Assembly (NCBI RefSeq): GCF_000373385.1 | Contig: NZ_KB891331.1 | Coordinates: 1 to 64,000, forward strand | DNA length: 64,000 nt | Direction: 5' to 3' | Source of the DNA: Thiobacillus thioparus DSM 505 | Lineage (GTDB): Bacteria; Pseudomonadota; Gammaproteobacteria; Burkholderiales; Thiobacillaceae | Shown: positions 56,846-60,360 of the stretch, piece by piece | Layout of the letters: each line of letters opens with the position of its first letter | Numbering within the stretch: position 1 is the first letter of the stretch | Program-made: the position numbers and the translations under genes | The notes under the pieces: generated by a model | The model's database searches: none | Seen by the model: only the letters and a program-made list of their open reading frames with translations | Told to the model about the DNA's origin: nothing

Positions 56846-57376
56846 ATGACGACCAAACGAACCAGCCGCACGTCGGCCAAATCGGTCCCCAGTCTGCGCC
56901 CACATGTCCTGGTGTTGCATGGCCCCAATCTCAATTTGCTGGGCAGCCGCGAACCCAAACATTACGGCCTCGCCACGCTCGACGACATCAATCGTGCGCT
57001 GGTCAATCTGGGAGAAGCCTCCGGGGCGCACGTCGAAACCTTTCAGCACAACCATGAAGGCACTCTGATCGACCGGCTGCATGAGGCCGCCCGTGACCAG
57101 GTGGATTTCATCGTCATCAACCCGGCGGCCTACACCCACACCAGCGTCGCGCTGCGCGACGCGCTGGCGGCGACCGCCATTCCGTTTGTCGAAGTTCATC
57201 TTTCCAATATTCACGCGCGCGAATCCTTCCGCCACCACTCGTATTTCTCCGACCTCGCCGTTGGCGTGGTGTCCGGTCTGGGCGCGCACGGCTACGAACT
57301 GGCGCTGGAATACGCGCTGCGTCACCTCCAAAACAGGACCCCCCATGGATCTCAGAAAACTGAAAAAGCTCATTGA
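56846..57376 (+). CDS. aroQ: 3-dehydroquinate dehydratase, type II
   Basis: A 176-residue cytosolic enzyme of the shikimate pathway. [21 protein letters not shown] contains the catalytic Tyr region, and the later [20 protein letters not shown] carries the catalytic His. Longer than the typical 145-150 residues because of a Ser/Thr/Lys-rich N-terminus ([13 protein letters not shown]); no later start codon is available. Its last 32 bases overlap accB in another frame, a link between aroQ and accB common in proteobacteria. Confidence 0.95.
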
Positions 57377-57791
57377 CCTGGTCGAAGCCTCGGGCATTGC
57401 CGAGCTGGAAATCACCGAAGGCGAAGAAAAAGTCCGCATCGCCAAAAGCATCGCTGGCGCGCCGATGATGATGGCGCACGCCCCGCAAATGATGCAGACG
57501 GCGGCTCCGGTCGCGGCACTCCCGGTCGCGGCCCCGGTGGAAGATGCTGTCCCCGAGGGACATGTCGTGCGTTCGCCCATGGTCGGCACCTTCTATCGCG
57601 CTCCGGCGCCCGGTTCCAAAAACTTTGCCGAGGTCGGCCAGAACGTGAATGCCGGCGATACGCTATGCATCATCGAGGCGATGAAGCTGCTGAACGAAAT
57701 CGAAGCAGACCAAGGCGGCGTCATCAAGGCCATCCTGGTCGAAAATGGTCAGCCGGTGGAATACGGCGAACCCTTGTTTGTGATTGCTTGA
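57345..57791 (+). CDS. accB: Acetyl-CoA carboxylase biotin carboxyl carrier protein
   Basis: A 148-residue carrier that moves carboxybiotin between AccC and AccAD in fatty-acid synthesis. N-terminal helix [28 protein letters not shown]; an Ala/Pro/Met-rich linker; biotinyl domain with the target lysine in EAMKL (residue 114). The ATG lies inside the end of aroQ. The last base is about 120 bases before the accC leader ORF. Confidence 0.97.
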
Positions 57792-57909
57792 GGAAAGGAT
57801 TCAGGGACCAAGGATCCGGATTCAGCGAACGAGCGGCTTTGCCGCGCCTTTGAACTCGGCGCGCAGCACCTTCCCTGACCCCGGTCCCCTGGCCTCTAGC
57901 CCCTAAACC

Positions 57910-58038
57910 ATGTTTGAGAAAATCCTCATCGCCAACCGCGGAGACCGGCTGCCGTCAGGCAGCGCAGCGGCGAAGCCAAAACGCGCAACGGCCGTAGGCC
58001 GTCAGGGCGATTTCGCCGCGGAGAACCAAAATGTTTGA
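57910..58038 (+). pseudogene. Duplicated accC start fused to a palindromic insert (42-codon leader ORF)
   Basis: An ATG at 57910 begins [11 protein letters not shown], identical to the first 11 residues of AccC but with six synonymous codon differences. The frame then enters a 71-base insert with three hairpins (57948-57963, 57988-58002, 58006-58017) and ends at a TGA at 58036-58038, inside the real accC start (ATG 58031). Both ends of the insert carry CCGCGGAGA (57936-57944 and 58016-58024). If the segment between the CCGCGG sites is inverted, the frame reads ..NRGEIAL, matching AccC further. It is most likely a decayed partial duplication; a leader-peptide role is possible. Confidence 0.7.
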
Positions 58039-59386
58039 AAAGATTCTGATCGCAAACCGCGGCGAAATTGCGCTGCGCATCCAGCGCGCCTGCCGCGAAA
58101 TGGGCATCAAGACGGTCGCCGTGTATTCCGAGGCCGACCGCGACGCCAAGTATGTAAAGCTGGCCGACGAATCGGTATGCATCGGCCCGGCGCCGTCGGC
58201 GCAGAGCTATCTGCACGTGCCGTCGATCATCGCCGCCGCCGAAGTCACCGACGCCGCCGCCATCCATCCCGGCTACGGCTTCCTGTCGGAAAACGCCGAC
58301 TTCGCCGAGCGCGTGGAGTCGTCCGGCTTCACCTTCATCGGTCCGCGTCCCGACAATATCCGCCTGATGGGCGACAAGGTCGCCGCCAAACAGGCAATGC
58401 TCGAGGCCAAGGTGCCCTGCGTGCCCGGCTCCGACGGCGCCCTGCCGGACGATCCCGACGAAATCGTACGGATCGGCGCCCGCATCGGCTACCCGGTCAT
58501 CATCAAGGCCGCCGGCGGCGGCGGCGGCCGCGGCATGCGCGTCGTGCATACCGAAGCTGCGCTGCTGAATGCGGTGACCATGACCAAGACCGAAGCGGGC
58601 GCCGCCTTTGGCAACCCCATGGTCTACATGGAAAAATACCTGCAGACGCCACGCCACATCGAGATCCAGATCCTCGCCGACGAACATGGCAACGCCGTCC
58701 ACCTCGGGGAACGCGACTGCTCAATGCAGCGCCGCCACCAGAAGGTACTGGAAGAGGCGCCGGCCCCCGGACTCGATCCCAAGCTCAGGGACAAGATCGG
58801 CGAACGCTGTGCCGAAGCCTGCCGCAAGATCGGCTATCGCGGCGCCGGCACCTTCGAGTTCCTCTACGAGAACGGCGAGTTCTACTTCATCGAAATGAAC
58901 ACCCGGGTGCAGGTTGAACATCCGGTGACCGAACTCATCACCGGCATCGATATCGTGCAGACGCAGATCCGCGTCGCTGCCGGCGAGAAACTGCCGTGGA
59001 AGCAGAAGGACATCCAGTTCAAGGGCCACGCCGTCGAGTGCCGCATCAACGCCGAGCATCCGACGACCTTCGTCCCCAGCCCCGGCAAGCTGACCAACTA
59101 CCACGCGCCCGGCGGCCCCGGCATCCGCGTCGACTCGCATGTGTACCACGGCTACTACGTGCCGCCGCATTACGACTCGATGATCGGCAAGCTGATCGCC
59201 TACGGCGATACCCGCGACCAGGCCATCGCCCGCATGCGCGGTGCGCTGATGGAAATGGTGGTCGAGGGTATCCACAGCAATATCCCGCTGCACCAGGAAC
59301 TGATGAACGATGCCGCATTCATCGCCGGCGGCACCAGCATTCATTATCTGGAGCACAAACTGGCGGCGGAGAAGGCTGACAGGTAA
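58031..59386 (+). CDS. accC: Acetyl-CoA carboxylase biotin carboxylase subunit
   Basis: A 451-residue ATP-grasp enzyme that carboxylates biotin on AccB. N-terminal [20 protein letters not shown]-grasp glycine loop [11 protein letters not shown] (about 158-168), [29 protein letters not shown] with metal- and bicarbonate-binding residues, and a C-terminal biotin carboxylase domain. The ATG at 58031 has GGAG at seven bases, inside the CCGCGGAGA repeat. The end is close to an inverted repeat (59393-59455). Confidence 0.97.
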
Positions 59387-59392
59387 GCGGCG

Positions 59393-59455
59393 AGCGGTGA
59401 GCAGCAAGCGGAAAAAACCCTCCCTGTCGCCCTTTACCGCTTACTGCTCACCGCT
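59393..59455. repeat. Inverted repeat after accC
   Basis: Two 19-base arms (59393-59411, AGCGGTGAGCAGCAAGCGG, and 59437-59455) pair with a single mismatch around a 25-base spacer. No T-run follows. The word-like AGCGGTGAGCAG style resembles dispersed intergenic repeats of related bacteria. The region lies between accC and prmA, which both read rightward. Confidence 0.7.
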
Positions 59456-59469
59456 AACCACTTGTTACC

Positions 59470-60360
59470 ATGCCCTGGCAATCCGTTCGCATCCTCGTCG
59501 AATCCAAACAGGCCGAGCCGTTGTCCGACGCGCTGATGGATGTGGGTGCGCTGTCGGTGTCACTGGAAGACGCTGACGCCGGCACAGTGGACGAAACCCC
59601 GCTGTTCGGCGAACCGGATCATCCGACTGCCGAATTGTGGCCGCACAGCATCGCGGTGGTGCTGCTGGACGAAAACGCCGACGTGGCGGAAACGCTGGCC
59701 GCCGCGGCAAAGCAGGCAGGCATTTCCGTTCCGACCGACTATACGATCGACATCGTGGCCGAGCAGGACTGGGTACGCCTCACGCAATCGCAGTTCGATC
59801 CCATCCCGATCTCGCCACGCTTATGGATCGTGCCGACCTGGCACGACGCGCCCGACAGCCGCGCGATCAACCTCAAGCTCGATCCCGGCCTGGCATTCGG
59901 TACCGGCAGCCATCCCACCACGCGCCTGTGCCTGCGCTGGCTTGACACGCAACTCGCTGGTAGCGAAACGCTGCTGGACTATGGGTGCGGCTCCGGCATT
60001 CTCGCCATCGCGGCGGTCAAGCTGGGCGCCGCGCGCGTCGACGGCGTCGACATCGATAGCCAGGCCGTCGCCGCGTCGCGCGACAACGCTACGCTAAACG
60101 AAGTTTCCGCCCATTTCTGCCTACCTGGCGAACTCGCGCCGGGCCAGTACGACGTCGTCGTCGCCAACATCCTCACCAATCCCCTCAAGGGCATGGCGCC
60201 GCTGCTGGCCGGCCGGGTGCGCGCCGGCGGGCGGCTGGTGCTGTCCGGCATCCTGGCCGAACAGGCAGACGAGGTCATGGCGGTCTATCGTGATTGGTTT
60301 GACTTCGACCCGCCCACAATCGACGAGGGCTGGGTGCGTCTGGCTGGCATCAAGCGGTGA
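59470..60360 (+). CDS. prmA: Ribosomal protein L11 methyltransferase
   Basis: A 296-residue SAM methyltransferase that trimethylates lysines and the N-terminus of L11. SAM motif LDYGCGSGILAIAAVKLGA, the N-terminal L11-recognition domain (1 to about 110) and the motif VVANILTNPL are present, as is GTGSHPTTRLCL. The GTGA overlap at its end starts the zinc-ribbon gene. Confidence 0.96.
   Translation: MPWQSVRILVESKQAEPLSDALMDVGALSVSLEDADAGTVDETPLFGEPDHPTAELWPHSIAVVLLDENADVAETLAAAAKQAGISVPTDYTIDIVAEQDWVRLTQSQFDPIPISPRLWIVPTWHDAPDSRAINLKLDPGLAFGTGSHPTTRLCLRWLDTQLAGSETLLDYGCGSGILAIAAVKLGAARVDGVDIDSQAVAASRDNATLNEVSAHFCLPGELAPGQYDVVVANILTNPLKGMAPLLAGRVRAGGRLVLSGILAEQADEVMAVYRDWFDFDPPTIDEGWVRLAGIKR

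Follow-up and report, generated by a model that had tools for sequence, protein, structure and literature searches.

Organization of the accB-accC junction

The window, the whole 64,000-nt stretch of DNA that was analysed, belongs to a genome of 3.2 Mb in 18 contigs. It carries the biotin carboxylase gene accC downstream of an ORF taken to be accB. By protein, the closest named accC is that of a Sulfuricella MAG (83% identity), in a comparison from which very near records may be missing. Several features reported by a first-pass annotation were verified from the raw sequence. The accC ATG at 58031 and an upstream ATG at 57910 are 121 bases apart, and codons 1-11 of the two starts encode the same peptide with six synonymous and 0 amino-acid differences. 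A CCGCGG palindrome at 57936 recurs 80 bases on, at 58016. A 42-codon ORF (57910-58038) begins at the upstream ATG, and its terminal TGA overlaps the accC start (ATGTTTGA). The reverse complement of 58003-58021, CCGCGGCGAAATCGCCCTG, continues like accC (EIAL).

Positions 57910-58030 form a single 121-bp unit, consisting of S1, a copy of the first 35 nt of accC, and an 86-nt structured insert that ends in a Shine-Dalgarno sequence; accC proper follows, and its first 35 nt are termed S2. The features are listed below.

57345..57791, + strand: presumed accB, biotin carboxyl carrier protein, upstream operon gene (ORF reading, EAMKLLNEI biotin motif)
57910..58038, + strand: leader ORF of 42 codons, TGA overlapping the accC ATG (ATGTTTGA, -8 overlap type; insert frame open in 43/43 loci)
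57910..57944, + strand: S1, copy of accC nt 1-35 (codons 1-11 plus GA) at the ancestral accC start position (pN/pS, S1-S2 closeness)
57945..58030, + strand: 86-nt structured insert (models R1 and R2)
57948..57963, + strand: hairpin H1 (GCTGCC GTCA GGCAGC), covarying
57969..57977, + strand: mini-hairpin H3 (GGC GAA GCC), stem covariation G-C/A-U/U-A
57988..58002, + strand: hairpin H2 (ACGGCC GTA GGCCGT), covarying
58004..58021, + strand: antisense arm (AS), the "inverted EIAL", complementary to accC codons 9-14 (pairing, covariation, folding)
58020..58023, + strand: Shine-Dalgarno-like GGAG of accC, at the base of the AS helix (pattern of SD-like strings)
58031..59386, + strand: accC, biotin carboxylase, 451 aa, with S2 as its first 35 nt (Pfam Biotin_carb_N, CPSase_L_D2, Biotin_carb_C)
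58057..58074, + strand: 3' strand of the long helix, within accC (codons 9-15; pairing; fold of 57996-58085)

The fold of 57996-58085 has z = -3.53. A promoter and terminator scan of 57700-58150 found neither.

Distribution of the unit

Strong matches to the insert (E <= 1.3e-9) lie upstream of accC in 11 of the 56 genus genomes, and all 11 carriers have a spacing of exactly 121 and a leader ORF of 42 codons. Short weak matches alone were obtained from 14 further genus genomes. The unit was not detected in 45 of the 56 and is therefore dispensable; among these 45, G003, G007, G022, G028, and G079 also gave no accC match at threshold. Two covariance models of the insert, R1 and R2, were used for wider searches. 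R1 matched the insert in 18/117 family genomes (E <= 2.2e-15) and in 23/399 sampled genomes of the order (E <= 3.2e-8), the latter from 10 families; both counts are lower bounds, with 11-38 candidates scored per genome. In every strong-match genome, with one locus each examined, the insert is preceded by a leader copy and followed by a biotin-carboxylase-type gene. At the 48 loci compared here the gene is AccC-like (EIAL) in 32 and PccA/ACC-like (EIAC/EITC) in 16. The 80 named accC loci include seven carriers by model (Ferrigenium, Nitrosomonadales, Oxalobacteraceae, Rhodocyclales, Roseateles, and two MAGs).

R2 was also run over the class (369 genomes) and the phylum (398 genomes), and 25 further loci were checked. 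Three have a biotin-carboxylase start with a unit or degenerate unit, namely G911 (the one genome outside the order that has the unit), G315, and a second G283 locus; no such start was found in the remaining 22, which were taken as chance matches. Among the weak R1 matches (E 3e-5 to 0.01), 16 were examined (14 of 29 in the order sample, 2 of 14 in the family sample): 15 lie away from a biotin-carboxylase start, and the one in G493 (E 3.9e-4) lies at one. Loci found later (L102, G911, G315, and the second G283 locus) are outside the 48-locus set.

Because the loci were gathered by a model trained on early members, their shared features partly reflect its reach. As a model-free check, 130 loci (79 of the 80 named accC loci, 50 genus loci, and one outgroup) were scanned for a second copy of the accC start up to 400 nt upstream. 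Nineteen have a copy at <=7 mismatches of 35, while shuffled accC starts never came closer than 15; the duplicated start thus exceeds chance. The scan added L102 (Acidovorax MAG), which has two units with a different insert of similar plan and keeps a GCGAAGC mini-hairpin. Shorter leader variants occur at the named loci L057 and L111, with spacings of 108 and 111 nt, and L111 has a degenerate repeat further upstream. These variants suggest that the family is wider than R1 and R2 detect.

The best other match in the window's own genome was 18 bases long (E 0.02), and a plasmid search with one leader peptide gave no match. Rfam had no match at E <= 1 across 57300-58500 of the window; at ten other loci the only two matches were to mir-1304, and these fell outside the unit and scored far below the gathering score. 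Both strands of 40 genus loci without a detected unit (G027 among them, cut off at the gene start) were searched with R2 for a flipped unit, and nothing exceeded 15.5 bits, against 32.9-103.6 bits for the units themselves. The weak minus-strand matches in these loci lie within accC codons that resemble AS.

In the 80 named loci, two weak minus-strand matches were found, at 25.2 bits (L081) and 20.2 bits (L071). The L081 match was rejected as a flipped unit, since it spans the accB end and the spacer and has no start copy beside it; a weak minus-strand match in L042 was rejected because it sits within accC codons. Separately, L230 (G093:C9:126325-128392) contains what looks like a CRISPR array, in which the CTTCAATAAGGCCGGGGCGAATTAGCCCCGGAAAAC motif is repeated and the spacers differ from one another.

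Conserved helices and the antisense arm

Comparison of the loci establishes the unit, its ORF and stop, and a set of covarying helices. In the 11 genus sequences, 98.4% of the cells of a three-helix structure are paired, with 10 both-side changes vs 2.5 in shuffles; the alignment (A3) holds 10 of the 11 units, and G016, whose insert is identical to that of G060, was omitted. Across families, 44 of the 48 sequences were aligned (A4/A5; G016, L094, L057, and L111 omitted, the last two being the shorter variant). Four helices are paired in 92.7% of cells vs 83.9% in shuffles, with 109 both-side changes vs 24.5 (0/500 shuffles as high) and a covariation score of 0.283 vs 0.125. In slid controls the paired fraction fell to 30-46%. 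The outer pair of H3 is kept in 44/44 sequences, with G-C shifting to A-U or U-A in step. The H3 loop is GAA or GCA in nearly all rows, and GGA in G250.

The AS arm covaries with the third positions of gene codons 10, 11, 13, and 14. At the third positions of codons 10-11 there are 26 cells in which S1 and S2 disagree, and AS is Watson-Crick complementary to S2 in 23, to S1 in 0, and to neither in 3; in 12 of these 26 cells S1 could form a G-U pair with AS. Counted over the nine shared positions together, AS fits S2 in 33/42 cells and S1 in 6/42, and at the third position of codon 9 it fits the two equally (4 and 4 of 8). This match to S2 and not to S1 is the strongest single result of the comparison, with rows that are related and events that are not independent. 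It argues against a chance origin of the EIAL match, which had been named as the outcome that would defeat the original reading. Part of the reverse match comes cheaply, since GGCGAAATCGCC is itself nearly self-complementary; the covariation shows that the match is maintained in spite of this. The signal for an RNA strand is modest, because the AS helix has 31 G-U and 8 A-C cells vs 43.4 and 17.6 expected from column composition. H1-H3 have no excess of G-U over A-C.

Predicted folding around the accC start

Masking of the accC start is a prediction made purely by folding. For the 48 loci, a segment comprising S1, the insert, and 75 nt of the gene was folded. Opening of positions -15..+12 of the gene is predicted to cost 15.5 kcal/mol on average, and 5.2 kcal/mol when AS is kept unpaired. 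The expected number of AS:gene pairs per locus is 14.9 vs 1.9 with shuffled AS. The AS helix is not predicted in G071 (0.4 pairs) and G377 (0.0 pairs), and it is weak in G473 (4.4) and L057 (5.8), both below the 95th percentile of the shuffles (8.3). Covariation, together with folding against shuffled controls, points to an RNA structure able to mask the downstream RBS and start. An SD-like string precedes S2 in 45/48 loci and S1 in 24/48.

The leader ORF

The spacing between the two starts is 121 or 118 in 43/48 loci, and the leader stop codon then begins at +5 or +8 from the A of the gene AUG. The other five loci have a different frame, and their leader stop begins 2-21 nt before the gene AUG. 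The insert frame is open in 43/43 loci whose spacing mod 3 is 1; the other frames are open in 25/43 and 31/43, and the fraction for shuffled inserts is 0.59. In G377 the S1 ATG is replaced by TTT, and an in-frame ATG is present one codon upstream.

The position of the stop depends on synonymous choices of the gene, because TTT or ACT at codon 2 of S2 makes it. Fifteen loci have TTC in S1 and the stop-making TTT in S2, and one has the reverse, with a leader that stops earlier (sign test p = 0.0005, relatedness ignored). Among f28 genomes, four of the MFTK type carry ACC in S1 and ACT, which makes TAA, in S2. Within the genus, codon 2 is TTT in 11/11 carriers and 16/39 non-carriers. TTT is also commoner in named accC loci that have no unit (48 TTT vs 22 TTC of 70; L102 taken out, L051 and L059 left out).

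Codons 1-12 of S1 have a pN/pS of 0.04 in the 11 genus genomes. Leader codons 13-38 have 0.77, and the other two frames of the same stretch have 0.63 and 1.13; no protein constraint is seen in this second part, since its value is no lower than that of another frame (0.63). These comparisons indicate that the start of the peptide is constrained, and that constraint on the remainder is chiefly on the RNA and on an open frame. Reading through the leader showed no recognisable stall motif. Judged from the alignments, the loci carry a translatable leader ORF that ends close to the downstream start, and the leader is probably translated.

Tandem copies and probable gain and loss

In the other genus loci examined, accC directly follows the accB-accC spacer and there is no start copy. 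S1 therefore occupies the original accC start site, and the start that was added is S2, together with its GGAG. On the accC tree (50 rows including one outgroup, first 60 nt excluded; G008, too short, and G027, without a readable start, left out), the unit needs 8 gains or losses vs 10.1 with shuffled labels, and 26/500 shuffles were as low. The unit is thus only weakly clustered on this tree, as would be expected from loss through recombination across the 35-nt direct repeats, or from movement. Among the 11 genus carriers, insert distance tracks accC distance (r = 0.88, 55 dependent pairs), and descent with loss is therefore favoured.

Two or more units occur at four of the 48 loci. G034 (L006) has at least two with a run of N between them; the tandem units of G080 (L189) are identical, those of G162 (L193) have 14/121 mismatches, and G392 (L209) has two. 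S1 resembles its own S2: the mean difference is 4.0/35 nt vs 5.75 when partners were permuted within gene type (0/2000 permutations as low). Residues 3-5 are equal in S1 and its own S2 in 40/48 loci, including the unusual MFDT and MFTK. S1 and S2 are separated by 160 synonymous and 29 nonsynonymous changes, where the neutral nonsynonymous fraction would be 0.77. In 7/48 loci the 35-nt flanking duplication has 0 differences, as a target-site duplication might, although tandem-repeat dynamics would account for it as well. On a poorly resolved insert tree the two gene types are intermixed (6 changes). From the tandem units and the patchy presence we infer that copy number may change between the direct repeats, with gain, loss, and S1-S2 homogenisation.

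Some unit-less members of the genus have start codons typical of one copy or the other. G013 (L009) has S1-typical codons, with GGA at codon 11; G024, G011, G018, and G031 (loci L015, L020, L022, L025) have the S2-typical TTTGAAAAG. These starts are compatible with precise loss of the unit in the past.

Proposed translational gate and alternative explanations

Taken together, the comparative and folding analyses suggest, with a probability of about three in four, that the unit gates accC translation in cis, as a translation-coupled leader with a hairpin that would hide the gene start unless the leader is translated. AS, at the end of the insert, would pair with accC codons 9-14 and enclose the accC Shine-Dalgarno and AUG in a loop. 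Direct initiation at accC would be costly because the AS helix closes both in this loop. Ribosomes might initiate instead at S1, the original accC start position. Translation of the 42 codons would run through AS and melt the helix; the ribosomes would stop on the TGA within ATGTTTGA and then reinitiate at the accC AUG. By this passage, stop, and reinitiation, accC output would be coupled to leader translation, perhaps with a regulatory input. The duplicated gene start and a likely effect of the leader ORF on accC translation, both considered in the first-pass annotation, are supported.

A wider reading is tentative, with the odds tilted slightly against it. Here the units would be an as yet undescribed family of self-matching leader modules, which copy the first 35 nt of their own biotin-carboxylase gene, carry an AS that tracks its synonymous codons, multiply in tandem or drop out, and move between paralogues and species, so that each gene would be gated through the translation of a duplicate of its start.

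The main rival to the gate is a mutational relic, in which a tandem duplication of the start and a template-switch inverted copy arose, and complementarity was kept by quasi-palindrome correction and direct-repeat recombination with no regulatory selection. It is the main rival because the G-U vs A-C bias expected of a constraint at the RNA level is modest. Tandem copies and S1/S2 homogenisation do occur, presence is patchy (8 changes on the accC tree), and G-U is not strongly favoured over A-C. However, four helices covary, loci with altered spacing still have a stop close to the gene AUG, the stop-making codons are in S2 and not in S1, and the same architecture is seen at one gene class across 10 families of the order. 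We consider this explanation unlikely. A DNA inversion has far less to commend it. The reverse match had been read as an inversion, past or still possible, of the segment between the CCGCGG palindromes; the match (58003-58021) and the palindromes are indeed present in the window. But all 48 of 48 loci compared have the same orientation, and 0 flipped copies were found among them and the 40 genus loci without a detected unit, at one assembly per species. The repeats are merely 6 bp, and the CCGCGG ends are not conserved, being absent from the unit-bearing G033 and G035 and from four f28 genomes. An invertible switch is hardly credible, and an RNA helix between the leader and accC codons 9-14 gives a better account of the match.

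A small site-specific mobile element might home to the conserved ANRG-E site of biotin-carboxylase genes, duplicate the preceding 35 nt, and leave the gene intact, regulation being secondary. Such an element would fit the occurrence of units at AccC-type and PccA-type paralogues with an S1 like the local gene (residues 3-5 equal in 40/48), and the intermixing of inserts from both types on the poorly resolved tree (6 changes). It would also fit G182 and G493, which carry the unit at two genes each, and G283, which has it at one gene with a degenerate second copy. Against it, no copy was seen at another gene class: 23/23 order genomes with strong R1 matches have it at biotin-carboxylase starts, and 13 of 14 exact core-motif matches in 399 genomes are unit copies already found by the model. 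The remaining one (G290) has neither a biotin-carboxylase start in the locus nor a pairing H3 stem. Within the genus the insert also follows accC in distance (r = 0.88, 55 dependent pairs), and a homing element is somewhat less probable than the relic. Ribosome bypassing, with S1 as the true start and a hop over the insert to the S2 codons, draws on the codons that S1 and S2 share on either side of the insert. Trans action, with the arm as a small RNA on other biotin-carboxylase mRNAs, draws on the ANRGEIA coding stretch common to the paralogues. Hopping is unnecessary, because S2 has its own AUG and SD-like string (45/48). As for trans action, AS follows the cis gene at synonymous sites, and L002, the locus for one of two paralogues in the window's own genome, offers a best arm site with 5/19 mismatches. 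Both mechanisms are very improbable.

Comparison with known systems

The translational gate proposed here may be compared with several known systems. Leader-peptide attenuators of the erm and cat type have a short leader ORF and a hairpin that hides the RBS of the next gene, and the accC leader shares both. It differs in that it is without a recognised stall motif, the target is biosynthetic, the leader start duplicates the target start, and tandem arrays occur. Rickettsia palindromic elements and mitochondrial byp elements are short, folded, patchy inserts within coding regions, and are found in many genes. The accC unit is likewise a short, folded, patchy coding-region insert, but it was found at one gene class, and it brings a duplicated gene start and a stop/start junction of its own. 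In the autoregulation of E. coli accBC, AccB has a role and the control is transcriptional. Control of the same operon is common to both; here, however, the unit separates accB from accC or precedes other biotin-carboxylase genes. The E. coli autoregulation is mentioned in PMC4495372.

Translational coupling by RNA unfolding and/or termination-reinitiation is reviewed in PMC12548453, which names a -8 nt spacing, e.g. NTGNNTGA. An upstream ORF, a structure over the downstream RBS, and an overlapping stop and start are common to the accC unit and the coupling described there, and ATGTTTGA fits the -8 type NTGNNTGA. Compared with the same account (PMC12548453), the accC leader ORF is no separate gene and begins as a copy of the first codons of its target, and the masking strand is antisense to codons 9-14 of its own gene. 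A search of open-access PMC titles and abstracts on accC/accBC leaders, upstream ORFs, coupling, and carboxylase sRNA found no description of the unit. The unit, for which no Rfam family or description was found, would belong with the translation-coupled leaders; it is unusual in that its leader starts as a copy of the target's start and its masking strand is antisense to the target's codons.

If the gate is real, a committed step of fatty-acid synthesis and related carboxylases would be controlled by a leader of scattered but wide occurrence (10 families, one order sampled). It would also illustrate a simple origin of a regulatory RNA, in which a gene start is duplicated and the spacer then evolves an arm against the gene's own codons. 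Synonymous sites of the gene would be tied to an upstream RNA arm, which is directly testable.

Neighbouring spacers

The accB-accC spacer (57789-57909) contains a long imperfect hairpin with short purine-rich repeats (ggattcaggg ... ccctgaatcc), and its fold in the window is unremarkable (z = -1.09). In the genus loci L003-L032 the letters of these repeats vary widely, and the arms are often complementary by eye. The spacer between accC and the next gene (59384-59472) folds into a very strong hairpin of -39.4 kcal/mol (z = -6.67, 0/200 shuffles as stable).
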